Below, piece by piece: positions 20,125 through 33,563 of a stretch of 34,546 nt of DNA. The notes beneath the pieces were generated by a model that saw nothing but the letters and a program-made list of their open reading frames with translations, was not told the origin of the DNA and did no database searches. The stretch's first letter is position 1. Each line of letters starts with the position of its first letter. The translations under genes and the position numbers were made by a program. The stretch is from Gammaproteobacteria bacterium (GTDB lineage Bacteria > Pseudomonadota > Gammaproteobacteria > S012-40): NCBI GenBank assembly GCA_919902765.1, contig CAKKRP010000034.1, positions 1 through 34,546 of the forward strand, written 5' to 3'.

Positions 20125-21036
20125 TTATCTGAACACATTCATGGTCACGGCCTCTGCCAGGCCGCATACCCCCGTTTCCTGTTTGGCGCTCCAGGCGGCG
20201 CGCAGGCGACCCACCGCTTCATCGTTGAGTTGAGCTAAATTTTTGAACGTGGCATCCAGCATGGCGGGCGCATCCGCCAGCGTCGGGGCTTGCTTGTCGA
20301 GTGCGCAATGCAAGGTGGCGACCGCCGCGTAGCGGCCTAATTGATACAATGCATGTTCTGTTTCGGTTTCCGGCGGTGTCGCGGTGGTGTTTAATTTTTC
20401 GATATGGATGCTTAAGGCTGCGAATTTGTCTTTACCCAATTGCATGGCGCCTTGAGCAAATCCCTGTTCGATCACGGTTTCGGCCGACGTTTTTGGTTTG
20501 GAAAAAAATGCGCGTGTGGCCAATGCCGCGCGATGGGGCTGCAACGCTTGGCTGGCCCAAGTGCGCGAAAATTCGTTGTCAACGGACGCGTAGTAGGCGT
20601 CGATAGTGGCGGCGGAATCCAATTCCGGATTTAGGTGGGTCACGACTGCCACCACCAGCGCTAAAGTCGCGACTGCGCCTAGCGCGGGCCATTGCATTAA
20701 ATTATTGAAAAAGTCCCGCCAGCCGCCTGTGCGTGACGCCGGCGGTGTGTTGGCGGCGGAAAAATCTAATGCAATGAGTTCGCCTGCGGCCTCGAGTGCG
20801 GCGATATAGCGATTGGTTTCAAAACAGCGCGCCCAACGCGCATAATGCTCATCTTGGGTGGCGATATAGGTGGTGACTTGGGCGCGTCGTATCGGGTCTA
20901 AGCGGCCGTCATAGAGCGCGGCCAGCTCTTCGTCGCTAGGGGGTGGGCCTACGAGCTGGGCGCCCATGTGGGTGAGCCGTAGGCCTAAAAAGGCCAGCGC
21001 AGCTTGTTCGCGGTAGGGGGTATCGTTAGTGTCCAT
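20125..21036 (-). CDS. Anti-sigma factor-like single-span membrane protein
   Basis: A 303-residue protein placed directly after a sigma factor gene. The N-terminal 95 residues are helical and include PSDEELAALYDGRLDPIRRA, a segment typical of anti-sigma N-domains. It lacks the H-x3-C-x2-C of zinc-binding anti-sigma factors. One transmembrane helix lies at about 117-134 (PALGAVATLALVVAVVTHL). The C-terminal 165 residues would be periplasmic, with two Cys and no recognised domain. The anti-sigma role is inferred from topology and position. A 12-bp motif shared with other genes of the locus lies at 21062-21073, only 26 bases before the ATG, so the gene may also have its own promoter. No strong ribosome-binding site is seen. 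Confidence 0.65.
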   Translation of the reverse strand: MDTNDTPYREQAALAFLGLRLTHMGAQLVGPPPSDEELAALYDGRLDPIRRAQVTTYIATQDEHYARWARCFETNRYIAALEAAGELIALDFSAANTPPASRTGGWRDFFNNLMQWPALGAVATLALVVAVVTHLNPELDSAATIDAYYASVDNEFSRTWASQALQPHRAALATRAFFSKPKTSAETVIEQGFAQGAMQLGKDKFAALSIHIEKLNTTATPPETETEHALYQLGRYAAVATLHCALDKQAPTLADAPAMLDATFKNLAQLNDEAVGRLRAAWSAKQETGVCGLAEAVTMNVFR

Positions 21037-21061
21037 GGTTCATGCTCGCGTTGTCGAGTAA

Positions 21062-21073
21062 TTAGTCGGACAA
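21062..21073 (-). promoter_or_regulatory. Locus motif site A, before the anti-sigma-like gene
   Basis: TTGTCCGACTAA on the minus strand, in the 56-base gap between the sigma and anti-sigma-like genes. It is identical over 12 bases to site B. GTGAAC lies 17 bases upstream of GACTAA, which resembles an ECF -35 element. This is possibly a second promoter for the anti-sigma-like gene. Confidence 0.5.
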
Positions 21074-21092
21074 ATCATTGTTATGTTCACTT

Positions 21093-22055
21093 TCAGTTCA
21101 TCGCTTCGTAAACTGAAGCTAAGTCGATGCCGCTTTTTTCCAGCGCGGCCCGAATATTTTGTAAGGCATTGGCGATAATGCGCCCTGGTTGATGGCTGGC
21201 TAAGCCCAATGACGCCGCGATATTATTGCGTTTGTGCCCATCCTGGTAAACCATGCGCAGGAGTAATATTTCTTGCTCAGAAAGTCGTAAATGGTCGCGA
21301 ACGGCGGCGAATTTGTGCCGAAAATCGGCGCTCAGGCCTTGAATGTCGGCGTCCGCCGGGGCTGCCTCAAAGAGGTGGGTGAGCATTAAAACCACATCGT
21401 CGTAGGCGTGGTTGGCCAATAAACCGTCTGGCGTATGGGGGTCGGCAATGAATTCTTCAACGCGCGCGTCTGGGTCGTCGTCACGGGTCAACGTGCCGGC
21501 CGAGACTTCGCGGTTGCTTAAACCGCAATTGGGGATGCGCGCTTTAATGGTGCGTATGGTCTGGCGCACGGCAGTGGGGTCGCGCATATCGCCGGCGCTG
21601 TGGCGCGCCACGACGGTCTCGGTGTCTTGGCGTTCCAGGCAGATCAAGCGCCACAGTTGTATCCAGGACTCACCCTGACGTTTCAACCATTCGGGTGGGC
21701 GTGGCCGCCCGAAGCGATCGCGTGAAAATTCTTCTAACATATTTGCGGCTAAGGTATGTAAAAACGTTTCCGGTTTGGCCTGACCTTTAAAAGACGCCAT
21801 TGCGCCCCAGTTATCGTCGCTGAGGCGTTCGAGTACATAGGCGCTGGCCTCCTCGGCAAGCCCCCCGGCCCCGAAGCGGCGGACGGCCAGCCGGTCTAGC
21901 CTTTCTAACCAACTCGGGTTTAACACCAGCGCGCGCCAATCGATCATAGTGCTGAGATCCTTCCTGCTAAACGTTTGTTGTTGCTCTATGGCCAATCGCA
22001 ACGGCATCACCCACGCAGTCGTGGCGACGGATAGTATGCCGTCATACGCGCTCAT
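21093..22055 (-). CDS. ECF-like RNA polymerase sigma factor
   Basis: A 320-residue protein with a sigma region 2-like part at about 65-125 (AEEASAYVLERLSDD, then ASFKGQAKPETFLHTLAANM and EEFSRDRFGRPRPPEW). A C-terminal region 4-like helix-turn-helix lies at about 255-305 (LRLSEQEILLLRMVYQDGH, then NNIAASLGLASHQPGRII). The approximately 130 residues between them are longer than in ordinary ECF factors and unassigned. The start chosen overlaps the caspase stop as ATGA. An internal ATG at 21947, behind AGGAAGGA, would remove 36 residues and is a real alternative. It is the third gene of the operon, before the anti-sigma-like gene. Its targets may be the genes preceded by the 12-bp motif. Divergence from standard sigma factors keeps confidence moderate. 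Confidence 0.75.
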   Translation of the reverse strand: MSAYDGILSVATTAWVMPLRLAIEQQQTFSRKDLSTMIDWRALVLNPSWLERLDRLAVRRFGAGGLAEEASAYVLERLSDDNWGAMASFKGQAKPETFLHTLAANMLEEFSRDRFGRPRPPEWLKRQGESWIQLWRLICLERQDTETVVARHSAGDMRDPTAVRQTIRTIKARIPNCGLSNREVSAGTLTRDDDPDARVEEFIADPHTPDGLLANHAYDDVVLMLTHLFEAAPADADIQGLSADFRHKFAAVRDHLRLSEQEILLLRMVYQDGHKRNNIAASLGLASHQPGRIIANALQNIRAALEKSGIDLASVYEAMN

Positions 22056-23800
22056 TTTATACCACCGCCAGCCGCAGTAGTAACCAGAGTGAGCGTCGCG
22101 CGGGCCTTTTTTAGCGTCTTATCGGTGAGCAGGCGTTCAAATGTCCCGGCCAACGGCTGATCGATCGCAAAATTTTTACCCTGTAGCGCGCGTAACTCAT
22201 CGGTAAGATGGTCAAAGGCGTAGGCAAAAACATGGTCGGTGCCATAGGGTGCGCGAACGACCGACATATCGATGAGGTTGAGGGCCTGGTTGGCCGGGAC
22301 AGGTGCCAATTCCGCCGCACTGTAAGGATACAGCACTGAGATCAAGCCGTACGGGTCTATATCGACGATGAGTAAATAGGCGGCTTCGGAGGTGCGCGCG
22401 CTAAATCCAACCGATTCGCCCGCCACCGCCGTCGCGCCGCGTCCGCGCCCGTGCATGTCAAAATCGAGATTAAAACCGGCGGAGACCTCGGTATTCAGCC
22501 ATTGATGCACCTTGCTCTGCGCGCGTAGCGCAGTGGTAATCGCCGCCGTGTCGAGCGTGGCGAAGGCCGCGATGAGATCGCCCGCCGAGCTGACCAATAT
22601 TGCGCCGTTGCCTTGTTTTTCCAAGCGCATCTCCGCCGCTTGGCCGGTTAAGGCAAGGCCGGATAGCGTGCTCAATTCACCCTGTAGCGATTTAAGGTCT
22701 GGGGCGACAAAGAGGCGTAACCGCCCATCGCCGGTGCCGATGTCGCCGTTGCCGCGTGGGGCAAGCGCAACGGCGGCCGTGCTCTCGCGCCCCACGCCGA
22801 ACACGGCGCGTTGCGCTAAATTGGCGCGATCTTCCGCCAGGGTTGGCAAACCTTGGGGCGTGTGATCGAAACCGCGTATGCGCATTAAATTGCGCACGGC
22901 TTGTTTTAATTCGCTATAACTGGTGTAGCCGTCTTGGTTGCTGTCGGAATCTATTTCTTTATTGAGTACGCGCAACAACGTATCGGTAAACGCCCCGTGG
23001 GGTTTGCCGTCTAGCGTGGGATAAATTTTTAATAAATCGGGCGGAATATCTTGTGCCGGTTCATGTTCGCCCGCCGCCGACAAGTAATAAATATTTTGAT
23101 AGGGATAAGGCGTGGTAGCGGTGTTGCCGCTCGACGCCGCCGCTTGCCAAGGTTTAGCGCTGGCAGGAATGTCATCGCCAAAGCCGCGACTTTTGAGTAT
23201 TTCTTTGATGCCCATCGCGCGCGTAGGTAAGGCGTTTTTTTGAAACGCCCCGCGCACCGTATTGCCCGAATAACAGGCGTCTATGGCCACGAAGACACGC
23301 CGATTGCCGTGGTCGAATTTAGATAATAACGGCTGCAAATCGCGATTGCCTATGATCAGATGGCGCGAAATTTCGTCCGGCGAATTCGCCTTTGCAATGT
23401 CGTAAGGGATGTAGGCCCCGGTGGTGGTCGGCAGCGTGACGATGGAGTTGTTATCTTCCGCGCTGGTGCCATGACCGCTGAGATAAATAAACACCTCGTC
23501 GTCGGCGTGCGTCTGTGTGTAGAGTTTGTTTATGGTGTTTAAAATATTTTCACGCGTGGCCTCACGATTTACAATAGACACGATATTTTTTTCTTTAAAC
23601 GCCCAGCGTTGCACCAACACCTTTTGTATCGCGCGTACGTCATTTACCGGCCCGTTTAGTGGTTTGACCGGGTAGTCGGAAACACCCACCAACAGCGCGA
23701 ATCGCTCGGCATAGGCCGGAATGCTGCACGTTAACCCCAGTAATGTTGCGAAGACGCGCGTAAGCGCCGGGTGTTTCTGAACTTGCAATGGATTATTCAA
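22052..23800 (-). CDS. Exported caspase-like (peptidase C14) protein with DUF4384-type C-terminal region
   Basis: A roughly 582-residue cysteine protease homologue. A hydrophobic signal (VFATLLGLTCSIPAYA) is followed by the caspase fold: LLVGVSDYPVKPLNGPVNDV, the catalytic His at about 110 in IYLSGHGTSAEDN, and the catalytic Cys at about 176 in AIDACYSGN. The His-Cys dyad is therefore intact. An Asp-rich loop (DSDSNQDGYTSYSEL) resembles an EF-hand and may bind calcium. The C-terminal 150 residues (FSARTSEAAYLLIVDIDPYG, VLYPYSAAEL) match DUF4384. The start is uncertain: the TTG at 23800, with GAGG upstream, gives the best signal peptide; a GTG at 23848 and a TTG at 23788 are alternatives. It overlaps the OmpA-type gene and the sigma gene, so co-translation is likely. 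The substrate is unknown. Confidence 0.85.
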   Translation of the reverse strand: MNNPLQVQKHPALTRVFATLLGLTCSIPAYAERFALLVGVSDYPVKPLNGPVNDVRAIQKVLVQRWAFKEKNIVSIVNREATRENILNTINKLYTQTHADDEVFIYLSGHGTSAEDNNSIVTLPTTTGAYIPYDIAKANSPDEISRHLIIGNRDLQPLLSKFDHGNRRVFVAIDACYSGNTVRGAFQKNALPTRAMGIKEILKSRGFGDDIPASAKPWQAAASSGNTATTPYPYQNIYYLSAAGEHEPAQDIPPDLLKIYPTLDGKPHGAFTDTLLRVLNKEIDSDSNQDGYTSYSELKQAVRNLMRIRGFDHTPQGLPTLAEDRANLAQRAVFGVGRESTAAVALAPRGNGDIGTGDGRLRLFVAPDLKSLQGELSTLSGLALTGQAAEMRLEKQGNGAILVSSAGDLIAAFATLDTAAITTALRAQSKVHQWLNTEVSAGFNLDFDMHGRGRGATAVAGESVGFSARTSEAAYLLIVDIDPYGLISVLYPYSAAELAPVPANQALNLIDMSVVRAPYGTDHVFAYAFDHLTDELRALQGKNFAIDQPLAGTFERLLTDKTLKKARATLTLVTTAAGGGIK

Positions 23801-24653
23801 GCGTAACCTCGATGCGCCGATTGAGCGCGAAAATATCTTCACTCTCACCTGGATATAGCGGCTCGCTTGCGCCCTTGCCGGCGATATGTAAGCGGCTTTT
23901 CAATTCTGGTTTGCGCGCGATCAGTGCAGCGGCGATTGTTTGTGCGCGTTGTTCAGATAGCGTTTTATTGTATTGCGTTTCGCCGCGCGCGTCGGTGTGT
24001 CCAGTCAGTTGTACTGGTCCTTTATACAGCGCATCACCGGCCAAGGCCTCGGCCAGCACATCGATATTGGCGGTGGAATTTTCTGTCACCTCGGTGCTGT
24101 TGTATTTAAAATTAATCGTGATATTTACCGATGGCTTGGCGTTCGGGCTGATCAGCGTAACCGAACGGCTGGTCAAGGCGCGTGTCAGTTGAGCGACCGT
24201 GACCGGTTGGTTGACGCGTTTTTTATCCAAGGACATGGCCAATTCCGTCATCCATGCGGGTGGGTGCGTATGTGCCTTGCGCGCCTGATGTAAGATCGCC
24301 AGGGGCTCGTCGATTTTGCCTTGTTGCGCCATCACTTGTGCATAACGTGCGCCCGCCAAGGCCTTTTCATCATTGGATTGCGCAAAACGCCGCGCGTCTT
24401 CAAAAGACGCGGAGGCGGCGTTGTAATCCTCCAGTTGTAATTGCGTTTGGCCTAGCAAATACCAATTATCGAAGCGATTGCATTCGGCGACGGATTTTTC
24501 CAATGCGCGGCGCGCCTCCGCCCATTGTTGGCGTTGACCGGCCTGCTTGCCCGTCTCAAAGAGCTTGTGTGCCGCTGTACAATCGCCGGCGTACGCAGAA
24601 TGCGTGGCGGCCAAGCTCAAAACAGCGATAGTCCATAACATAGTGTTGCGCAT
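23793..24653 (-). CDS. OmpA-family protein with TPR-like N-terminal region
   Basis: A 286-residue periplasmic protein with a signal peptide (MLWTIAVLSLAATHSAYAGD). The helical TPR-like region at about 25-135 includes WYLLGQTQLQLEDYNAASAS. A C-terminal OmpA peptidoglycan-binding domain covers about 180-286 (INFKYNSTEVTENSTANID, GPVQLTGHTDARGETQYN, LSEQRAQTIAAALI, LNRRIEVTLE). The conserved Asp and Arg that bind diaminopimelate are present. The ATG at 24653 is chosen for the signal peptide and upstream AGAGGATATC; the frame is open 42 codons further. It is the first gene of the OmpA-caspase-sigma-anti-sigma operon, with motif site B 41 bases upstream. Confidence 0.88.
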   Translation of the reverse strand: MRNTMLWTIAVLSLAATHSAYAGDCTAAHKLFETGKQAGQRQQWAEARRALEKSVAECNRFDNWYLLGQTQLQLEDYNAASASFEDARRFAQSNDEKALAGARYAQVMAQQGKIDEPLAILHQARKAHTHPPAWMTELAMSLDKKRVNQPVTVAQLTRALTSRSVTLISPNAKPSVNITINFKYNSTEVTENSTANIDVLAEALAGDALYKGPVQLTGHTDARGETQYNKTLSEQRAQTIAAALIARKPELKSRLHIAGKGASEPLYPGESEDIFALNRRIEVTLE

Positions 24654-24693
24654 AGTGGCGATATCCTCTGGTATTGATCTAAGTGATGTCATT

Positions 24694-24705
24694 TTAGTCG
24701 GACAA
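24694..24705 (-). promoter_or_regulatory. Locus motif site B, before the OmpA-caspase-sigma operon
   Basis: TTGTCCGACTAA on the minus strand, with its 3' end 40 bases before the first ATG of the operon. It is identical to site A. If CGACTAA is a -10 element, the leader would be about 35-40 bases long. Confidence 0.55.
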
Positions 24706-24797
24706 GTAGATGCATACAAACCTAACCTACAGATTGCTTGTGGCGCGCGCGCGGGCGACGTATAATTTTTGGTAATCAATGCGCGGAAATAGCGCGC

Positions 24798-24809
24798 ATG
24801 GCCGACTAA
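24798..24809 (+). promoter_or_regulatory. Locus motif site D (weaker), before the beta-barrel gene
   Basis: ATGGCCGACTAA on the plus strand matches sites A and B at 10 of 12 bases. It lies 28 bases before the beta-barrel ATG and points toward it. The match is weaker than A, B, C and E. Confidence 0.35.
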
Positions 24810-24837
24810 TACAGTGATTTATACAGGTGCAAAACAG

Positions 24838-25503
24838 ATGTCTATGTCGCGAGGTATGCAATTGGGCTGCTTGTCGTGGGTGCTGCTGGCGAGCTCGGCC
24901 GCTACTCAGGCCGGGGTTTTCGGAGGCGTGAAATCTGAGGCGGGAATATGGCAATCCGGGCTGGACGGCAACCTTCCTGGATGGTCGGTGGGCGCGGACC
25001 TGGGCTATCAACACCAGGATTGGTTCGGGGGGCTGGGTGTCGCCTGGGGCCAGTATGCGTTGCCTAATCAAAGCAACGGCGTTACGCGCGATGATCTCGA
25101 TATCATGCTGGGCTATCAAATCGGGTCGGGTTTATCAGTGTTTGGCGGCTACAAACACATCGGCATTGATCACCCGGCGAGCGGCAACTATGCCGCTTTT
25201 ACCGAGCAAATACAAACGTTTGGTTTGGGTGCGCAATACAGCATGCCGATCTCCGGGCCGTGGGCCGGGGTGTTTCGCGGATCGGCGAACATTCCGAGCA
25301 CGGTTTTTAAAAGCGGCAGCACCAGCGTGAACGGTAATGGTGCCGGTTTTAGCGCGGACGGCGGCGTGGCATATTGGATGGATAAGGCCACAAGCCTAAA
25401 CGCAGGGCTTAAAATGCAAAATATGCAGCTCAAATATACCACCGACGGCACCTGGACCACCACGACGTGGAAAGCGGTGCTTGCCCTCAATCGTCATTTT
25501 TAA
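24838..25503 (+). CDS. Outer-membrane beta-barrel-like exported protein
   Basis: A 221-residue protein with a signal peptide (LGCLSWVLLASSAATQAG). The mature part has alternating aromatic and small residues, as in amphipathic beta strands: WSVGADLGYQHQDWFGGLGV, GYQIGSGLSVFGGYKHIGI, FGLGAQYSMPISGPWAGVFR. It ends in an aromatic residue (ALNRHF), which suits BAM-dependent outer-membrane insertion. No named family was recognised. The ATG at 24838 (AGGTG upstream) is preferred over a GTG at 24814 and an ATG at 24856. It is transcribed divergently from the OmpA-caspase-sigma operon. Confidence 0.75.
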   Translation: MSMSRGMQLGCLSWVLLASSAATQAGVFGGVKSEAGIWQSGLDGNLPGWSVGADLGYQHQDWFGGLGVAWGQYALPNQSNGVTRDDLDIMLGYQIGSGLSVFGGYKHIGIDHPASGNYAAFTEQIQTFGLGAQYSMPISGPWAGVFRGSANIPSTVFKSGSTSVNGNGAGFSADGGVAYWMDKATSLNAGLKMQNMQLKYTTDGTWTTTTWKAVLALNRHF

Positions 25504-25603
25504 AAATCGCAGGTCGTAGGCTGCTAAACGGGATGTCCGAGCCGCCTGCTAGGTCGAATTTTTTCCCAATCTTTGCTAACGTATAGATGCTAGACGTTGC
25601 GGC

Positions 25604-25789
25604 TTATTGCCACTTGGCTGCGTCCCATTTGGACTGATCCCACCGCAAGGTAGTATCGGGCGGGTTGGTAGCGCCATTCTGCGAGCTTGTCGTCGTTGCA
25701 TGGGAAGGATGTCCAGCGCCGGTAGTGCCGCCGCCGCAGGCGGTTAACAAGACCAAGCCAATGCTCAGGGCTGTTATAAGATTACGCAT
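25604..25789 (-). CDS. Small lipoprotein
   Basis: A 61-residue predicted lipoprotein starting MRNLITALSIGLVLLTACGG, lipobox LTAC, with acylated Cys at about 18. The short mature part is Gly/Ser/Thr-rich and ends in the tryptophan pattern RWDQSKWDAAKWQ. The residues after the lipid Cys, CGGGTTGAGHPS, are nearly the same as CGGGDQGGGHPS in the ELWxxDGT lipoprotein 4 kb away. AGGTCGATC precedes the ATG; an upstream ATG at 25801 is less likely. The long 5' region (to 25932) contains motif site E in the right orientation. Function is unknown. Confidence 0.65.
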   Translation of the reverse strand: MRNLITALSIGLVLLTACGGGTTGAGHPSHATTTSSQNGATNPPDTTLRWDQSKWDAAKWQ

Positions 25790-25931
25790 GATCGACCTCA
25801 TAGGTGGGTAAAGCGCCAGTTAAGATTGCTACCATAATATTTGTAAGTATATACGCAGTAACTCATTTTGGCAAGATGAAAACACGGCGCGCCTTAAAGT
25901 GCAAGGCAAGCCCAAAAGCGTGAACCGCTTT

Positions 25932-25943
25932 TTAGATGGACAA
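25932..25943 (-). promoter_or_regulatory. Locus motif site E, toward the small lipoprotein
   Basis: TTGTCCATCTAA on the minus strand, 10 of 12 bases identical to sites A and B and 11 of 12 to site C. It lies about 142 bases before the lipoprotein ATG. Confidence 0.45.
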
Positions 25944-25985
25944 GCCTTTGTTTATGCTGAGTGTAGCAATTAAATATTAAGCGTT

Positions 25986-25997
25986 TTGTCCGTCTAA
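25986..25997 (+). promoter_or_regulatory. Locus motif site C, toward the second caspase gene
   Basis: TTGTCCGTCTAA on the plus strand, 11 of 12 bases identical to sites A and B. It lies 176 bases before the caspase ATG. Downstream bases AATGAC are shared with site B. Confidence 0.5.
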
Positions 25998-26173
25998 TAA
26001 TGACGATTTAGAGGCTTGATAGTTGGGCAACGCGCGTCTGAATACGGGGCGGTCGTTCAGCAAAGTATTCGGCCGCGATTTTGGTCGAACATCGCCTTCA
26101 CCTTCGGTCGCGCGGCCGTGCTAGACAGTATGGCTGATGCAAACTATAATGCCTGGAAATATAGGTGGATTGT

Positions 26174-27232
26174 ATGTGTACAATAAAGTTTTCGCCTGTT
26201 AAAACGCTATGTATGGCGTTTTTCGCCTCAGTAATTACCACAACCGCATTTGCATTGGATGTGCGCGGCTTGTCGCGCAAGGGCAGCACGCCTTTTTCTG
26301 ACGGTACGTTTCGCGCGTTGGTCATAGGCAATAACGCCTACCGTGATCCGACCGGCACCTGGAAACCTTTGCGCACGGCGGTCGCGGATGCCAAATCCGT
26401 TGCCGAAGTGTTGCGCGAGGAATACGGTTTTGCCGATGTTGAAGTGTTATTGGATGCCACGCAACGCGACATTCTGAAGGCCATAGACGCCCTCGGCAAC
26501 CGCACCAAAGATAACGATAGCGTGATCGTTTATTATGCCGGTCATGGTTACAAAGAAGACGATAAAGACCGTGCGTTCTGGGTGCCGGTGGATGGCGTAG
26601 GCCAAGATTTCACGACCTTTATCCGCAATTCGACGATACGCGACGAAATCGCGTTGCTCGCCGAACGCGCTAAACATACTATGCTGATTTCCGATTCTTG
26701 TTTCAGCGGCACCTTGCTGCGCACCGGCAACCGCGGCGCGGCCGTGCGTGAAGGCGCGCGTTATTATGAAAAGGTCGCCAACAAGAAGAGCGTGCAGATA
26801 TTGGCGGCGGGCGGCCAAGAATTCGTCGATGACAATTACAAAGGGTCGGGTCATTCGCCGTTTACCTATTTCTTATTGAATGAATTAAAACACAATAAAT
26901 CGCCGCTTCTTTCCGCAGGTGAGCTGGCGGCGAACGTCGAAAAGGCCGTTGCGAATAATGTGGAGCAGACCCCGGAAAGCGGCGTGCTGGCGAGTGCGGG
27001 GGATGAATTGGGCGAACTGATTTTTAGCAAGATCAATATCAAAATCGAATTGACGGCGGAGCCCGCACAGGGCCGCGCACAGCCCGCCAATATACCGATT
27101 ACGGTCGAAGCGCCGGTGGTGGTGAGTGGCGCGCCTGTGGCGGCGCCAGAAGCGTCTAAACCGGCGGCACGTCGCGCCGCAGACAATCGCAATGCGTCGG
27201 CCCAACCGTTGGCCGCATTACCGACCTTTTGA
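26174..27232 (+). CDS. Exported caspase-like (peptidase C14) protein, short form
   Basis: A 352-residue caspase homologue with a signal peptide (CMAFFASVITTTAFALD). The fold shows FRALVIGNNAYRDPTGTWKP, the catalytic His at about 124 in VYYAGHGYKED and the catalytic Cys at about 176 in LISDSCFSGTLL. The p10-like part has GSGHSPFTYFLLNELKHN. The last 65 residues are Pro/Ala-rich and likely a flexible linker or tail; no DUF4384 follows, unlike the larger paralogue at 22052-23800. The ATG at 26174 has AGGTGG upstream; a GTG at 26165 is possible. It may be the first gene of a rightward cluster with the repeat protein and CsgG-like genes, separated from them by 185 bases. Confidence 0.88.
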   Translation: MCTIKFSPVKTLCMAFFASVITTTAFALDVRGLSRKGSTPFSDGTFRALVIGNNAYRDPTGTWKPLRTAVADAKSVAEVLREEYGFADVEVLLDATQRDILKAIDALGNRTKDNDSVIVYYAGHGYKEDDKDRAFWVPVDGVGQDFTTFIRNSTIRDEIALLAERAKHTMLISDSCFSGTLLRTGNRGAAVREGARYYEKVANKKSVQILAAGGQEFVDDNYKGSGHSPFTYFLLNELKHNKSPLLSAGELAANVEKAVANNVEQTPESGVLASAGDELGELIFSKINIKIELTAEPAQGRAQPANIPITVEAPVVVSGAPVAAPEASKPAARRAADNRNASAQPLAALPTF

Positions 27233-27287
27233 TCCATATGACTCAGAATGCGAGAAATTTTTAAAAAAGCTTGTACAAAATAATAAA

Positions 27288-27299
27288 CTGTCCTACTTA
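27288..27299 (+). promoter_or_regulatory. Possible locus motif site F (weak), before the repeat-protein operon
   Basis: CTGTCCTACTTA on the plus strand matches sites A and B at 9 of 12 bases. It lies 118 bases before the repeat-protein ATG. It could be a chance match. Confidence 0.2.
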
Positions 27300-27417
27300 T
27301 ATTACAACGCAGTGACCGTCCTAGAAAACGTAAGAACTGCGGAGGTTAGGCAAGGGGAAGTTGGAAAGTTATTTAAAATGTTCGTTTTTTCATTCAACCA
27401 CTGTTAAGGAGAAAGTT

Positions 27418-27714
27418 ATGAAGACCGCAATCAAAACCGTCATCGCTGTTGCCGCCCTGGGCTTGTTCGTGGGTTCCGCTGGCGCCGCCGACATCAAAAA
27501 CTCGACCGTTGAAACCAATGTCAAGGCCGAGAAGCTTAACCAAAGCGCCAGCGGCTTTGCCTCTTCCAACAAATTGGAAGCCGGCAGCGTGGGCGACAAA
27601 GACACCAAGATCAAGAATTCCAAGGTGAAGACCAACGTGACGGTGAAAGACGTTAACCAAAGTTCCAGCGGCTTTGCCAGCTCGAACGATGTCAAATTGG
27701 GCAACGTGAAATAA
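27418..27714 (+). CDS. Small secreted two-repeat protein, curlin-like candidate
   Basis: A 98-residue protein with a signal peptide (MKTAIKTVIAVAALGLFVGS, cleavage near AGAAD) and two 33-residue repeats at about 26-58 and 65-97. They share 20 of 33 positions, including IKNS-x-V-x-TNV and NQS-x-SGFASSN. Regular Asn, Gln, Gly and Ser positions with short beta-like strands recall curlin repeats, though the spacing is not the canonical curlin consensus. AGGAGA precedes the ATG. The gene sits upstream of a CsgG-like lipoprotein gene, which supports secretion to the surface. A terminator-like hairpin follows it, so it may be expressed more strongly than the genes after it. Amyloid formation is inference only. 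Confidence 0.7.
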   Translation: MKTAIKTVIAVAALGLFVGSAGAADIKNSTVETNVKAEKLNQSASGFASSNKLEAGSVGDKDTKIKNSKVKTNVTVKDVNQSSSGFASSNDVKLGNVK

Positions 27715-27732
27715 TGCCTCATTAATAAGAAC

Positions 27733-27763
27733 CCACACCCTGCATTCAGGGTGTGGTGTTTTT
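27733..27763 (+). terminator. Intercistronic terminator/attenuator hairpin
   Basis: CCACACCCTG (27733-27742) pairs perfectly with CAGGGTGTGG (27747-27756) over a 4-base loop, followed by TGTTTTT. It ends 14 bases before the next ATG, immediately before that gene's AGGAAGG ribosome site. Partial read-through would set a high ratio of the repeat protein to downstream products. Confidence 0.8.
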
Positions 27764-27777
27764 AAGGAAGGTAACCC

Positions 27778-28071
27778 ATGTCCTATTCCCGATATCTTGT
27801 TGTATTCCTCGTGTTTATTAGTTATGCAGGCGTCAGCACAGCGGCGGTGCATAAATTTGAAGACAAGACCAACGCCAAAGTCGCGCGGCTCAAGGCCAGA
27901 CAAAATGCCGCCTCGGCTACGGCCGGTTCAGGTGTCGGCGGCGCGAAAGGCAATTGCGGCGGCGTAGACATCGGCAATGTGACTAATCAAAAAGGCTCTA
28001 AGCAAGCGAAACAGGAAGTGACCGTCGTGATTACCGGCGATGTCGTCAATATGGGCAACAAGTGTAAGTAG
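27778..28071 (+). CDS. Small secreted protein with two cysteines
   Basis: A 97-residue protein with a signal peptide (YLVVFLVFISYAGVSTAAVH). The mature part starts with a charged helical stretch (FEDKTNAKVARLKARQ) and a Gly/Ala linker. It ends in a short domain bounded by two Cys: NCGGVDIGNVTNQKGS, then VTVVITGDVVNMGNKCK. The Cys pair could form a disulfide in the periplasm. The Asn/Gln/Gly content of the tail (DIGNVTNQ, MGNK) is similar in flavour to the preceding repeat protein, so a minor or nucleating subunit is possible but unproven. AGGAAGG precedes the ATG. No family was recognised. Confidence 0.65.
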   Translation: MSYSRYLVVFLVFISYAGVSTAAVHKFEDKTNAKVARLKARQNAASATAGSGVGGAKGNCGGVDIGNVTNQKGSKQAKQEVTVVITGDVVNMGNKCK

Positions 28072-28099
28072 TGAAGCGCAGGATACGAGATATACACCT

Positions 28100-29611
28100 A
28101 TGTATAGTCAAACTACTAAACTGATTTCACTGTTGGTCGCCACCACACTGGCTGCGAGCGGCTGCACCAGCATGCTCAAAAAAAGCATCGAAAGCGACGT
28201 GGAACAAGCACGCGTGGGTCCGAGCCAACGCCCTGGGCGCGCGCTTACTAATTTTTCTCCTGCGTTACGCTGTATGGACGATATGTTCCTGGATTTCGGC
28301 ATAGAGCGCACCAAAATTTTAGTCGAAGACCTTGAGGACCGCACCTCGGTGGTCAAGGCCGGCACCAAGGACATGTTTATCTCGGCCGTGTCGGACATGA
28401 CGCGGCGTTCGCACGCCATAGAGCTGGTCGCCTATGGCAATGATTCCGGCAATCTAGTGGCGTTTATGAATGCCGCAGGGCGTCAAACGCAATTTCAAGA
28501 CGTGCCGAAATACGATATACGCGGTTCGATTTCTCAGCTCGATAAAGATGTAGTGAGCAAAGAGCTTGACGGCGGCATGACCATCGGGCAAAACGGATTA
28601 GGCTTAGGTGCGAGCGCCAAAGGCTCGATTTTAGGCATAGATCTCAATGTGTTGAGCACGGATACCTTCGCCGTGGTGCCTGGCGCGGTGTCGCGCAATT
28701 CGATGGCCGTGTTTGCGACGGGTGTTGGCGGCGATGTCGATGGCGTCATCCAAAAAGCAGGCTTAGCCTTTAGTTTTGCGATGAGCAAATCTGATGGCCA
28801 GGCGCAAGCGCTACGCAATTTGATAGAACTGGGCAGCATAGAATTGACGGGTCGTTTGTTTAAACTGCCGTATTGGAATTGCTTGGGCATAGACCCCGAC
28901 CATCCCGAAGTTCGCAATGAAGTCTCCGATTGGTATTATTCGTTGGATGCAAACCAACAGGCGGTCGCCTACGTGCAAAAACAAATGCGCTTGCGCGGCT
29001 ATTATCAAGGCGAAAGCGACGGCAAACTATCGCAAGCATTGTCGGAGTCCGTGCTCGCCTATCGCCAAGATTTAGGCATGCCCGCCAAGGGCGATGTCGA
29101 TGAAGAATTTTTCAAAACCCTATTGAATTTGCAACTCAAAAGAAAAGGCAATGCGACGTACGCGTCCACCACGGTGAATATTCCGCCGGATGCCGATTTA
29201 TATATCGCCGCCACCAATGCCGCGCAGTTGTTTAATCCTGGCGAAAAAGTCAATTTACTGGTCACCAGCAAGACCGACGGATTTGTGTATTGCTTCTACG
29301 AAGATGCGGAGCATCATGTGTCGCGTATTTTCCCAAACCGTTTTCAGCGTGACGGATTTTTAAAGGCGCGCAAGGAATTGTTGTTGCCGGGCACCATGCC
29401 GTTCCAAATCGCGGCCCATCCGCAAGGCAAGCCCGAAACGCTGACTTGCATGCGTACAACAAAGGATGTGCTTGCGGAGCTGCCGGACGCCATCAAAGTG
29501 CTGGATTTCGTTCACTTGAAGACCTCCGGGATGGGCGAGATACGCGCCGTCATCGCCAAGGCGGCGGGCGAGAAAGTGATGGAAAATTCGTTTACCCTCA
29601 AGTCTAAGTGA
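28100..29611 (+). CDS. CsgG-like lipoprotein with peptidoglycan-binding and DUF4384 domains
   Basis: A 503-residue predicted outer-membrane lipoprotein (signal ending TLAASGC, Cys about 22). Residues 50-260 resemble CsgG: TKILVEDLEDRTSVVKAG, DMFISAVSDMTRRSHAIELV, then a Gly-rich strand region and a helix ending GSIELTGRLFKLPYWNC. Residues 285-345 look like a PG_binding_1 module (VAYVQKQMRLRGYYQGESDG, LAYRQDLGMPAKG). Residues 358-480 fit DUF4384 (PPDADLYIAATNAAQLF, VLVTSK-like VNLLVTSKTDGFVYCFYED, RIFPNRF). CsgG forms the curli export pore; here the extra domains could anchor the pore to peptidoglycan and a partner. The ATG at 28100 is chosen for the lipoprotein signal. It lies in the operon of the two small secreted proteins. 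The CsgG assignment is moderate because divergence is high. Confidence 0.72.
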   Translation: MYSQTTKLISLLVATTLAASGCTSMLKKSIESDVEQARVGPSQRPGRALTNFSPALRCMDDMFLDFGIERTKILVEDLEDRTSVVKAGTKDMFISAVSDMTRRSHAIELVAYGNDSGNLVAFMNAAGRQTQFQDVPKYDIRGSISQLDKDVVSKELDGGMTIGQNGLGLGASAKGSILGIDLNVLSTDTFAVVPGAVSRNSMAVFATGVGGDVDGVIQKAGLAFSFAMSKSDGQAQALRNLIELGSIELTGRLFKLPYWNCLGIDPDHPEVRNEVSDWYYSLDANQQAVAYVQKQMRLRGYYQGESDGKLSQALSESVLAYRQDLGMPAKGDVDEEFFKTLLNLQLKRKGNATYASTTVNIPPDADLYIAATNAAQLFNPGEKVNLLVTSKTDGFVYCFYEDAEHHVSRIFPNRFQRDGFLKARKELLLPGTMPFQIAAHPQGKPETLTCMRTTKDVLAELPDAIKVLDFVHLKTSGMGEIRAVIAKAAGEKVMENSFTLKSK

Positions 29612-29621
29612 GTAGGTGGCC

Positions 29622-29909
29622 ATGCGTATCAAAGCGATTTTATTGTTGATGTTAGCCAGTGTTGCCGCTCACGCAGGGGTGCTTGAAAGCCCTGTCAAAG
29701 CGGTGGAGAAAATGACTAAGAATTCCCCCGCGTCGCAACTACGTTGTTGGCAATATGGCACATTGATTTTTGAAGAAACACAACTGATCGCCAAGCAATT
29801 GCCGAGCGGGGATAAAGACGTTGTGTTTTTGAAAAAAGACGGTTCGCAGGAAAAGTTGCACCTCTTCAATATGGATGGTGCGGCGTGTATGTATCGGGAA
29901 GCGGAGTAG
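29622..29909 (+). CDS. Small periplasmic protein
   Basis: A 95-residue protein with a signal peptide (RIKAILLLMLASVAAHAG) and a 75-residue mature domain. The domain contains QLRCWQYGTLIFEETQLIAK and KLHLFNMDGAACMYRE, with two Cys that may form a disulfide. It starts at ATG 29622, with AGGTGG upstream, 10 bases after the CsgG-like stop, so it is probably co-transcribed. No family was recognised. Position suggests an accessory factor for the CsgG-like protein, comparable in place only to CsgE/CsgF. Confidence 0.65.
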   Translation: MRIKAILLLMLASVAAHAGVLESPVKAVEKMTKNSPASQLRCWQYGTLIFEETQLIAKQLPSGDKDVVFLKKDGSQEKLHLFNMDGAACMYREAE

Positions 29910-29984: not shown

Positions 29985-32900
29985 ATGTGTATGATGAATA
30001 TAACTTCTTTTCGTGTCGTTCGCGGGTTTTATTGCGCGGTTATTTTGGTGCTCTCAGGTTGTGGCGGTGGTGATCAAGGGGGCGGGCATCCTTCGAGACA
30101 GTTTACTACCGGCAATTTTAGCGTAGGTGGAAATGTTGCCGGATTGATTTCCGGCAATGTTGTTTTGCGGCTAAACAGCGGCGGAGATTTTCAAGTATCA
30201 AGCAACGGAGATTTCGTGTTTCCTGATACGGTGCCGAGTAATTCTGATTATGCGGTGTCCATAAATACTCAGCCGATAGGGCAAACCTGTGCAGTTGAAT
30301 CCGGTAATGGGAAGGTAAAAATCGCTAACATCAATAGCGTAAAAGTGGTATGTAACCCAAACACCTACAAAGTAATAGTCACCGCCACCGGCGTCACGCG
30401 TCCCGGTCTGAGTTTGCGCAATAATGGGGCGGACAATTTAACGATTGATGCAAATGGTGAATACACCTTTGGCGTTTCTGTGGCGTATATGTCGAATTAC
30501 GATTTAGCTATTGTAAACTCCCCTGCGGGCCTGTATTGCAGCTTGTCGCAAAGCAAGGGCGTTGTCGGCGCGACCGATATCAACGGCGTTAAGATCACGG
30601 TCAATTGTAACGTAAACTTTTTTAAGGTTAACGTCTCGGTATCCGGGGTTACTGGAGCCGGTATGGTGCTGCAAAACAATGGTGGGGATAATCTCCCTAT
30701 CAATGCGAACGGAAATTATATCTTTACAACAGCGGTGGCGGATCTTAGCAATTATAGTGTGTCCGTTTTAAAACCCCCTGCGCGCCCGAATCAGGAATGC
30801 TCGATCAGTAGTAATGGTACTGGCCAATTAGCTGGTGCAAATGTCAGCGTTTCTATAAGCTGTAAGCTCCAAGTGCTTTTTGTTGGCAATGATGGTAGTA
30901 CGGGGTATGAACTTTATAAAACGGATGGCACTGCGGCAGGTACGTCACAAATCAAGGACATCAATACCAACACCGATTCGAACCCGAGCGATTTTGTCGA
31001 CGTCAACGGTGTGATTTATTTTGCGGCTAGCGATGGCGGCACAGGTATGGAATTGTGGAAAACCACTGGCGTGGCCTTAGGCACGGCGTTAGTGAAGGAT
31101 ATTAATTCAGGGGCTGACAGTAGTTATCCGAGTAATCTCACCAAGGTAGGCGGTTTGCTTTTTTTCACTGCACAGGGCAATATCGGTCAGGAGCTGTGGA
31201 AATATGACCCATCGACCGCTATCCTCACCGGTGTAGATGTGAATCCCGGGTTGACTAACTCGACCCCGAACAGCTCTTCTCCTAGAAATTTGGTCGCAGT
31301 GGGGGGCGTGCTATATTTCACCGCGACCAGCGCAACGAATGGTAACGAGTTGTGGAAATATGATCCTGCCATAGCGCCGCCATTGCAAGTGATCGACATA
31401 GTTACAGGCGCTGTCGGTTCTAATCCAAATTATCTAACTTTAGTGGGCACGTCCAAATTATATTTTAGCGCCTATACGGCGGCCTCTGGCGATGAGTTGT
31501 GGCAGCTCGATCCCGCCGCCGCTACCCCCTTACCGACGATAGTGGCAGAGCTAGTAGCGACAACGGGTTCTTCTTATCCGAGCAATTTAAAGGCGATGGG
31601 GAGTTATTTGTATTTCAGCGCGACTACCGCCGCCAATGGATACGAGTTGTATCGTTATGACGGCAGCGCCGCACCTGTTTTGATAGATATCAATGGTGGT
31701 GCGGGCAGTTCTTATCCGGGTCAGTTCGAGGTGGCGGGTTCAACGCTCTATTTGAGCGCCGACAATGGGTCGAGCGGGCGCGAATTATTCAAGTGTGTGG
31801 CGACCACCTGCTCATTGGTGGTGGACATATGGCAGGGGATGAACGGCACTTATCCAAATAGCTCATCTCCCAGCAATATTACCGCAGTCGGAAGTGTAGT
31901 GTATTTCACTGCGAATGATGGCGCGAATGGTAACGAGCTATGGAAATACGATGGCTCAGCAACCTTGATTGATATTAACACGGGTGCCGTGGGTGGAGCG
32001 CCAAATAGTTCCTCTCCAAGGGATTTGGTGGTATTGAATTACAATACCTTGGTATTCAGCGCGTACGATAGCGCCCAAGGGCAAGAACTCTGGGCGTACA
32101 ACGGTTCCGCTCTAGCCAAGATAAATGATATTGTTCCTGGAGTCCCTAGCGGCTATCCCCAAAATTTATTTGTCACAAGTCTGAACAATAAGGTGTATTT
32201 TAGCGCCAGTGACGGCCAGCATGGACGTGAATTGTGGTCTACTGACGGTACCGTAGGTAATACCGCTATGGTGGCCGATATTGGGCAAAAGGGTGGGGAT
32301 TCTCTTTATTATTCACGAGGCGGTAAGGGTGGTGTTTCTCGTTGTTCACGAGGCGGTACGGGTTACGTCGCGACGGTCAATGGTATTACCTATTTTTCAG
32401 CTTACGACGGAATATCAAACGAATTGTGGCGCACTGATGGCATTCAAGCCGGCACCTTTATTGTAAAGCGGCTCAACACTGTTAATGCGAACGGTAGTAA
32501 CCCATCCAACTTTGCAGTGTTGGGCGATACCGTTTATTTCTCGGCGGATGACGGGGTTTCCGGGGTTGAGTTGTGGAGCACGCAGGGGACGAATGCTAGC
32601 ACCAAACGAGTGCGCGACATTAATCCAGGCCTTAACGGAAGTTGCCCGTCGAATCTGACAGTGGTTGGTAACGTTTTGTATTTTACTGCGAACGATGGGA
32701 CGTTGGGCACGGAGTTGTGGCGCACCACAAATACCTCGGCAGGTGCGGAGTTGGCATATGATATCTATGAAGGGGCGTATGGCAGCTACCCGTCCTACTT
32801 AACCGCTGTTGGCAATATGTTATATTTTTCAGCCAACGGGTACTCATCCACGACAGGTGAGGTAGGGACTGAACTCTATCGGTATGACCCCAGCGCCACG

Positions 32901-33563
32901 GGTGCGGCAGCGCTGACATTGTACGATATTTTTCCCGGCACATCTGGTACAGCCCCCAACATTTACCCGAATAGTTCTTCTCCCTATTATTTAACCGCAG
33001 TGGGAACTTCGTTGTATTTTACCGCCTATGACAGCACTCATGGTTCGGAGCTATGGAAGTTGAGTGGCGGTATAACTTCTGTGATAGAAATTGTAGCAGG
33101 CGCCACTAGCAGCTATCCTTCTCAGATGACGGCGTTAGGCAATACGCTCTATTTTAGCGCGACAGGAAGCAATGGCTCGGAGTTGTTCAAATACGATGGC
33201 AATACATTGACGTTCGATGATCTTTACCCAGGCCTCACTAATACCTATCAAAATAGCTCTTATCCGGGGCAGTTCACGGTACTGGGTAACAACCTGTTCT
33301 TCACCGCGAATGACGGATCCAATGGAAACGAACTTTGGAAAGTGGGTGTATCCAGCGCTCCGGTGATGGTGCCAAATATAAACGCGGGTGCAGATTCCAG
33401 TTCGCCTACGGCGTTGCGTGCGGTAGGCGATAAGCTGTTCTTCGTTGCCGACGATGGTAGTACGGGCATGGAATTATGGGTTTGGGACGGTGTGGCCCCA
33501 ACGCGTGTCAAGGACATAAATTCGGGTGCTGCGACTGGCGCGGCGGATATTTTTCCGCAGTGA
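29985..33563 (+). CDS. Large ELWxxDGT-repeat lipoprotein
   Basis: A 1192-residue lipoprotein with lipobox VLSGC and a mature start CGGGDQGGGHPS. About residues 40-305 hold repeated approximately 80-residue Ig-like modules (NVAGLISGNVVLRLNSGG, VTATGVTRPGLSLRNNGADN, VSVSGVTGAGMVLQNNGGDN). From about 305 to the end I count 18 ELWxxDGT-type units (ELWKTDGT-like) spaced about 45-55 residues apart, each with a preceding V-x-YF-x-A-x-DG strand, likely forming beta-propeller or solenoid structure. Such proteins are predicted surface or exported. Three in-frame ATGs cluster at 29985-29996; which is used is unclear. An atypical Gly/Arg/Ser insertion interrupts the repeats near residues 770-790. Lower GC and third-position AT use than the left-hand genes suggest a distinct history. 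Confidence 0.85.
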   Translation: MCMMNITSFRVVRGFYCAVILVLSGCGGGDQGGGHPSRQFTTGNFSVGGNVAGLISGNVVLRLNSGGDFQVSSNGDFVFPDTVPSNSDYAVSINTQPIGQTCAVESGNGKVKIANINSVKVVCNPNTYKVIVTATGVTRPGLSLRNNGADNLTIDANGEYTFGVSVAYMSNYDLAIVNSPAGLYCSLSQSKGVVGATDINGVKITVNCNVNFFKVNVSVSGVTGAGMVLQNNGGDNLPINANGNYIFTTAVADLSNYSVSVLKPPARPNQECSISSNGTGQLAGANVSVSISCKLQVLFVGNDGSTGYELYKTDGTAAGTSQIKDINTNTDSNPSDFVDVNGVIYFAASDGGTGMELWKTTGVALGTALVKDINSGADSSYPSNLTKVGGLLFFTAQGNIGQELWKYDPSTAILTGVDVNPGLTNSTPNSSSPRNLVAVGGVLYFTATSATNGNELWKYDPAIAPPLQVIDIVTGAVGSNPNYLTLVGTSKLYFSAYTAASGDELWQLDPAAATPLPTIVAELVATTGSSYPSNLKAMGSYLYFSATTAANGYELYRYDGSAAPVLIDINGGAGSSYPGQFEVAGSTLYLSADNGSSGRELFKCVATTCSLVVDIWQGMNGTYPNSSSPSNITAVGSVVYFTANDGANGNELWKYDGSATLIDINTGAVGGAPNSSSPRDLVVLNYNTLVFSAYDSAQGQELWAYNGSALAKINDIVPGVPSGYPQNLFVTSLNNKVYFSASDGQHGRELWSTDGTVGNTAMVADIGQKGGDSLYYSRGGKGGVSRCSRGGTGYVATVNGITYFSAYDGISNELWRTDGIQAGTFIVKRLNTVNANGSNPSNFAVLGDTVYFSADDGVSGVELWSTQGTNASTKRVRDINPGLNGSCPSNLTVVGNVLYFTANDGTLGTELWRTTNTSAGAELAYDIYEGAYGSYPSYLTAVGNMLYFSANGYSSTTGEVGTELYRYDPSATGAAALTLYDIFPGTSGTAPNIYPNSSSPYYLTAVGTSLYFTAYDSTHGSELWKLSGGITSVIEIVAGATSSYPSQMTALGNTLYFSATGSNGSELFKYDGNTLTFDDLYPGLTNTYQNSSYPGQFTVLGNNLFFTANDGSNGNELWKVGVSSAPVMVPNINAGADSSSPTALRAVGDKLFFVADDGSTGMELWVWDGVAPTRVKDINSGAATGAADIFPQ
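32312..32358 (+). repeat. Two direct 14-bp repeats inside the ELWxxDGT gene
   Basis: TTCACGAGGCGGTA occurs at 32312-32325 and 32345-32358, exactly 33 bases (11 codons) apart, encoding SRGGKGG then SRGGTG. It breaks the usual repeat pattern at the place where a Gly-Ser-Tyr-Pro-Ser-type linker is expected. Confidence 0.6.

Follow-up and report, generated by a model that had tools for sequence, protein, structure and literature searches.

Probably sigma-controlled exported caspase homologues beside a CsgG-type exporter suggest an undescribed envelope-response system in a gammaproteobacterium

The window analyzed here is one 34,546-base contig (CAKKRP010000034.1) of a 3.3 Mb gammaproteobacterial genome, and it carries a locus in which genes for an extracytoplasmic function (ECF)-like sigma factor, an anti-sigma factor and two exported caspase homologues lie beside a CsgG-type export module. 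The support that we computed covers the genes, the CsgG fold, the synteny and a promoter element shared across the locus, and what it describes is a real and recurrent system, modular in build, whose units share a promoter and for which a sigma switch is plausible. The minus-strand and plus-strand halves of the locus are probably one sigma-controlled regulon, and we put the probability of the whole envelope-response model, including a proteolytic step by a caspase, at about 0.55.

Every gene named in the initial annotation was found, on the strand given there and with the caspase motifs intact. The anti-sigma, sigma, caspase-1 and TPR-OmpA genes are on the minus strand, whilst on the plus strand a beta-barrel and caspase-2 are encoded first, then two small secreted proteins (the repeat protein and a second one), the CsgG-like lipoprotein and a last small protein; between the barrel and caspase-2, a lipoprotein of 61 residues is encoded antisense. 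Starts were refined using homologue alignment and signal peptides, which placed them at 21947 (sigma, MIDW...), 23782 (caspase-1, GTG), 24653 (TPR-OmpA), 26174 (caspase-2), 27418 (repeat protein), 28100 (CsgG-like) and 29622 (last small protein). The features of the locus are as follows.

20125..21036, minus: anti-sigma factor with a sigma-binding-like domain at its N-terminus, then a single transmembrane segment and ~160 residues of periplasmic domain (hidden Markov model and BLASTP homology to zf-HC2 anti-sigma proteins)
21060..21072, minus: promoter element TGTCCGACTAATT, 24 bp ahead of the anti-sigma start (sixth among ~69,000 positions when scored with a matrix derived from other genomes)
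21093..21947, minus: ECF-like sigma factor, start MIDW... (TIGR02937, 4.8e-5)
22052..23782, minus: caspase-1, exported C14 protease with DUF4384 (PF00656 7.8e-18, DUF4384 1.2e-5; YLSGHG/DACYSG; metacaspase relatives)
23793..24653, minus: TPR-OmpA peptidoglycan-binding protein with signal peptide (PF00691 9.3e-17, TPR matches; orthologue in genome G008 44% identical)
24692..24704, minus: promoter element TGTCCGACTAAAA of the TPR-OmpA/caspase-1/sigma operon (exact match, one of seven in the 3.3 Mb genome; window rank 4)
24799..24811, plus: promoter element TGGCCGACTAATA of the barrel gene (window rank 3)
24838..25503, plus: outer-membrane beta-barrel protein (PF13505, 0.0012)
25605..25790, minus: small lipoprotein, 61 residues, lipobox LLTAC (read from the sequence)
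25930..25942, minus: promoter element TGTCCATCTAAAA of the small lipoprotein (window rank 2)
25987..25999, plus: promoter element TGTCCGTCTAATA of caspase-2 (window rank 1)
26174..27232, plus: caspase-2, exported C14 protease (PF00656 7e-26; YYAGHG and DSCFSG)
27289..27301, plus: promoter element TGTCCTACTTATA of the repeat-protein/CsgG operon (window rank 5; also before repeat-protein genes in L060, L142, L144 and L062)
27418..27714, plus: secreted protein with two 39-residue repeats of the form Q-x3-G-x4-N, a candidate substrate for export (L059-L062 have homologues adjacent to CsgG)
27778..28071, plus: small secreted protein of a conserved family directly before CsgG (16 family proteins, adjoining CsgG in most loci)
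28100..29611, plus: CsgG-type outer-membrane lipoprotein with C-terminal peptidoglycan-binding and DUF4384 domains (model residues 48-264 match CsgG structures, Z 14.1)
29622..29909, plus: small periplasmic protein of the LRCWQYG family (in L059-L061, L064, L065, L068 and L069 a homologue comes right after CsgG)
29985..33563, plus: large lipoprotein of 1192 residues with ELWxxDGT-type repeats, probable further member (N-terminal domain shared with a lipoprotein of the G008 locus, E 3e-6)

The two halves are joined by the promoter element. Upstream of repeat-protein genes in locus L060 and genome G378, the pattern TTCAA-N17-TCTA (in extended form GTTCAA-N11-TGTCC-N-TCTA) occurs at fixed spacing in five of eight regions, against at most three of eight in shuffled controls, and a seven-site matrix picked a site between the sigma and anti-sigma genes in L060, L021, L134 and L142. 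The window was scanned with the -10 part of eleven external sites, the window's own sites not being used, and six window sites are the exact top six of ~69,000 positions. They precede the genes for caspase-2, the lipoprotein, the barrel, TPR-OmpA, the repeat protein and the anti-sigma factor, all oriented toward the gene; these six transcription units cover both halves, and the -10 score separates the six genes from the 16 other genes in the window (p 2e-4). The exact pattern TGKCCNWCTAAWA has seven matches in the whole genome, four of them in the window. We consider the rank test cleaner because TGKCCNWCTAAWA was tuned after the window sites had been seen; the choice of the -10 part alone was also made after a first look. 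The initial annotation had proposed a single system spanning both halves under a dedicated sigma factor, and the shared element supports that proposal.

The element also occurs in related loci. With leave-one-out scans the two best sites of L021 are those of TPR-OmpA and anti-sigma, and those of L134 are anti-sigma and caspase-1; with a matrix of all sites, the best site in L135 precedes the caspase and the second best in L062 the repeat protein. Altogether, the element stands before anti-sigma in L021, L060, L134 and L142, before a caspase in L134 and L135, before TPR-OmpA in L021 and, unlinked, in L161, before the repeat protein in L062, and before the OmpA gene of the CsgG locus in L065. 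Genome G384 has a TPR-OmpA orthologue on another contig and a CsgG-adjacent OmpA on a third, and both carry the element, which argues for a regulon rather than mere linkage. We infer that it is read by the sigma factor of this locus.

That sigma factor aligns with TIGR02937 over positions 16-164 of 165, with regions 2 and 4 recognised, but scores 23 bits against a curated cut-off of 42.9, and no NCBIfam or Pfam cut-off is passed; against a local ECF model it reaches 4.7e-22 after iteration. As the protein is divergent, longer and below the curated cut-off, we label it only as ECF-like. It is 38-48% identical to sigma genes beside CsgG or caspase genes in other genomes. Two paralogues, 43-47% identical, are encoded elsewhere in its own genome, on contigs C83 (L024) and C65 (L025), with no caspase nearby and no strong element upstream; the one on C65 lies amid a subtilase and proteins with domains that appear to be of ice-binding or adhesion-like type.

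The anti-sigma gene directly follows the sigma gene in complete related loci. Its product has a single hydrophobic peak at about residues 112-140, between cytoplasmic and periplasmic parts. The window protein itself has no Pfam or NCBIfam family match, the zf-HC2 finger being absent and its ligands replaced; the finger is found in homologues, above cut-off in that of L141. All six complete window-type anti-sigma factors, and the G378 fragment, have Arg-[Ser/Ala/Asn] in a linker of variable length, a motif noticed post hoc. Basic residues are described as preceding the cuts of bacterial caspase homologues (PMC6426788), and Arg175 in this linker may be a caspase cut site.

The window holds both of the caspase genes that the genome has, an arrangement not due to chance. 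The His and Cys motifs of the two proteins are intact (YLSGHG/DACYSG in caspase-1, YYAGHG/DSCFSG in caspase-2), and caspase-2 aligns with the catalytic motifs of metacaspase-1 and has homologues 45-57% identical within the family. The initial annotation took C14 proteases to be usually cytoplasmic, a generalization that does not hold here: 46 of the 52 caspase proteins in our set have a hydrophobic, export-like N-terminus. A caspase-2 homologue adjoins a barrel homologue in six further loci; in G008 (L110:150-9830), a caspase-2/barrel pair stands directly behind apparent type VI secretion genes. Other exported-caspase operons, in this family and beyond, are paired with different types of sigma/anti-sigma-like gene: a canonical ECF gene in L119 and L122-L124, and unrecognised Cys-rich proteins in L113, L114 and L143. 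This suggests that recruitment has happened repeatedly.

The export module was identified through its fold. The CsgG-like protein has PG_binding_1 and DUF4384 domains (DUF4384 E 6.7e-15, Pfam) and an LAASGC lipoprotein sequence after its N-terminal hydrophobic stretch. It does not itself match PF03783, whereas 11 of 33 relatives do. Its AlphaFold model, calculated as a monomer, resembles CsgG structures across residues 48-264 (Z 14.1, 176 residues), the top eight rows of a structural search (VIA) are all CsgG, and the Foldseek match to CsgG has E 1.2e-8; a peptidoglycan-binding fold follows at ~275-348, and the part beyond 365 contains a beta domain (DUF4384). The fold and the PF03783 matches of relatives thus uphold an outer-membrane export module of CsgG type, as first annotated. 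The two small secreted proteins, originally treated as one kind, are in fact different: one belongs to the repeat-substrate family, with two 39-residue repeats, and the other to a separate conserved family. From fold and neighborhood, CsgG-type export of the repeat protein would follow, with this protein as the putative cargo. Long repetitive secreted proteins (up to 1578 residues) are encoded beside CsgG in L064:3769-9504, L069:6093-9438 and L061:8413-9513, and are possibly large cargo of the same export route.

Curli (type VIII secretion, in which CsgG works with CsgA, CsgB, CsgE and CsgF) likewise have a CsgG-fold outer-membrane lipoprotein encoded beside small secreted repeat proteins, and their diversity has been surveyed with CsgG, CsgE, CsgF and CsgA models (PMC3521004). 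The window differs in the additional peptidoglycan-binding and DUF4384 domains of its CsgG and in the added sigma, anti-sigma and caspases. The small proteins at the window locus gave no match to curlin repeats (QxGxxN; PF07012), their repeats reading Q-x3-G-x4-N, and none to CsgE or CsgF in Pfam, and curli proper was rejected on these grounds.

A scan of 84,980 species genomes by CsgG alignment returned 49 loci in gamma-, beta- and alphaproteobacteria and some others, including the culturable Methylotuvimicrobium, Azoarcus, Tahibacter and Haemophilus parainfluenzae. The recurring order is repeat protein, second small protein, CsgG, last small protein, OmpA. In L059 and L060 a window-type sigma and anti-sigma lie divergently beside the CsgG operon; L090 has CsgG, OmpA, caspase, sigma and anti-sigma within 13 kb; and in L063 and L068 a sigma/anti-sigma pair of other ECF families follows CsgG, with OmpA and a caspase coming next in L068. 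Sigma/anti-sigma genes are near a caspase in L134, L135-L138 and L141. Three other genera of the same family keep caspase-1/sigma/anti-sigma (L020, L021, L023) with no CsgG found, and in L021 the row continues with TPR-OmpA, lipoprotein, barrel and caspase-2. Among the 13 genomes of the order, full-length CsgG was found only in that of the window, which makes a later acquisition of the CsgG part probable.

Of 37 CsgG loci, 14 have a caspase no more than 10 kb away (12 of 35 without near-identical relatives), where 0.28 would be expected from the caspase counts per genome. Window-type sigma factors occur in 8 of 37 CsgG genomes (5 of 34 without the genomes used in model building) versus 2 of the 368 further genomes sampled from the class; as both of these lack CsgG, the sigma factor is not exclusive to this system. 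Four of the eight sigma-bearing CsgG genomes have the sigma within 10 kb of a caspase (0.087 expected), and in a fifth (L137) it adjoins a caspase-like N-terminus truncated where the contig stops. Two more have it beside CsgG; one of these contigs breaks inside the anti-sigma gene, and the missing end opens another contig of that genome, ahead of repeat-protein genes and a caspase gene (L142, L144), a join that is presumed. The association probabilities overstate significance because shared ancestry is ignored. On the synteny counts and the promoter test together, we rejected chance neighbors. Synteny of sigma, caspase and CsgG, whose conservation the initial annotation had named as support for its proposal, does recur in unrelated genomes, but the halves are not obligate partners: G006, G007 and G008 retain sigma/anti-sigma/caspase-1 and lack CsgG, and in the majority of CsgG loci no sigma, and in many no caspase either, is encoded within 10 kb. 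Overall they are associated far beyond chance, so that the refuting condition set in the initial annotation, independent occurrence of the halves in most genomes, has a mixed outcome.

We therefore propose the following model. The anti-sigma factor, with its one transmembrane segment and periplasmic domain, would hold the ECF-like sigma factor at the inner membrane until a putative envelope signal leads to cleavage of the anti-sigma. The freed sigma would then transcribe the TPR-OmpA/caspase-1/sigma operon, the genes for the anti-sigma, barrel, lipoprotein and caspase-2, and the repeat-protein/CsgG operon, and the repeat protein would reach the cell surface through the peptidoglycan-tethered CsgG-type lipoprotein. 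For the exported caspases, the site of action would be the periplasm, where caspase-1 most likely would help to cut the anti-sigma linker (candidate Arg175), creating a feed-forward loop.

Several observations weigh against this model. In the window, conservation does not extend to the -35 element that L060 and G378 have; as the full -35/-10 matrix is weaker there than its -10 part, we claim no -35. In G381 (L062) the element precedes a repeat-protein gene in a genome with no window-type sigma detected. The two-repeat beta model of the repeat protein has a pLDDT of 63.5, a low confidence and too weak for a fold search. Finally, cutting of the anti-sigma by a caspase has only gene order and a post-hoc motif as its basis.

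The alternative that survives best, although we think it doubtful, keeps the same regulon but, as in the initial annotation, assigns to the caspases the processing or policing of envelope proteins, exported repeat proteins among them, with no role in sigma release. It fits the position of caspase-2 directly upstream of the repeat/CsgG operon and the sigma-less CsgG modules flanked by caspases in many genomes (L069, L080, L086-L088); on the other hand, sigma/anti-sigma/caspase-1 operons persist with no CsgG detected, and many CsgG/repeat modules have no caspase nearby, with none in the scanned Haemophilus and Rodentibacter genomes. Both roles, anti-sigma cutting and processing of envelope or exported proteins, thus remain candidates. 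The tight caspase-1/sigma/anti-sigma operon, kept where CsgG is absent, and the linker Arg-[Ser/Ala/Asn] favor the former, and gene order fits action on the anti-sigma at least as well as on a secreted substrate. We tentatively suggest that the exported caspases may be periplasmic first-step proteases freeing the membrane anti-sigma, in a regulon that would build a peptidoglycan-anchored, CsgG-type surface-protein exporter.

It is unlikely that a different regulator, either an activator or a second sigma factor, acts on the element whilst the adjacent sigma has other targets. The missing -35 and the G381 site would suit such a regulator, but the orientation is fixed toward each start, as for a promoter, and five genomes (window, L021, L060, L134, L142) have the element between their sigma and anti-sigma genes, where self-regulation would place it. 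Some bacterial caspase homologues serve defense and cell death, and the locus could be an envelope-stationed suicide or defense system whose caspases kill or lyse the cell. This we consider very improbable: no recognised defense gene is among the ten proteins (Pfam and NCBIfam; PADLOC was not run), export and the peptidoglycan-binding partners point to envelope work, and Haemophilus-type modules have no caspase. Least probable of all are two unrelated modules with only a chromosomal address in common, since the promoter element is common to both halves and CsgG is repeatedly and independently associated with caspases and with sigma/anti-sigma genes of different families, even though no other genome of the order was found to have full-length CsgG and a sigma gene is missing from most CsgG loci.

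Parts of the proposed regulatory model have precedents. RpoE/RseA/DegS likewise has a membrane anti-sigma with a periplasmic domain and sigma-driven envelope genes; the window cluster has no DegS-like gene, and the periplasmic protease would instead be a caspase. In type III-E CRISPR (Csx29/Csx30/CASP-sigma), a caspase-like protease relieves inhibition of an ECF-like sigma by cutting its inhibitor (PMC10028731), but that protease is cytoplasmic, CHAT-type and RNA-triggered, in contrast to the exported C14 caspases and membrane anti-sigma here; neither a CHAT protease nor Cas7-11 is found among the ten window proteins (Pfam, NCBIfam). For ECF54, which has CHAT-domain neighbors (PMC8999054), proteolytic control by proteins including caspase-like ones has been proposed, although ECF54 has no anti-sigma. 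Asplund-Samuelsson et al. (2012) described metacaspase operons that include sigma-70 genes, in Myxococcus among others, and 14 operons with OmpA (PMC3501461), so sigma factor or OmpA genes in caspase operons are not new; the operon section of that survey names no CsgG module, anti-sigma, shared promoter or mechanism. No paper joining CsgG, a caspase and sigma/anti-sigma was found among open-licence PMC papers, a coverage that makes this absence weak evidence.

Around the locus, the 1192-residue lipoprotein (29985-33563) probably belongs to the set because a relative sits in the orthologous G008 locus. No named RNA elements or tRNAs were found in the window. Many CsgG loci (L059, L060, L090) have a DUF2807 (head GIN domain) protein after OmpA, which is missing in the window. 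Haemophilus parainfluenzae and Rodentibacter (L073, L074, L075, L082) have a CsgG-type module that includes small repeat proteins as well as the second small protein; a scan of two of these genomes found no caspase, and there is no sigma gene close to the module.

CsgG-type secretion thus extends beyond curli in many proteobacteria. The roles of bacterial caspase homologues beyond cell death and defense are largely open, and many carry unexplained export signals. Our results suggest an undescribed envelope-response system of sigma-controlled exported caspases and a CsgG exporter, and the locus offers a testable answer, in which a sigma/anti-sigma switch and a promoter signature go together with a candidate site of cleavage and, as the output, a CsgG-type exporter with a putative repeat-protein cargo.

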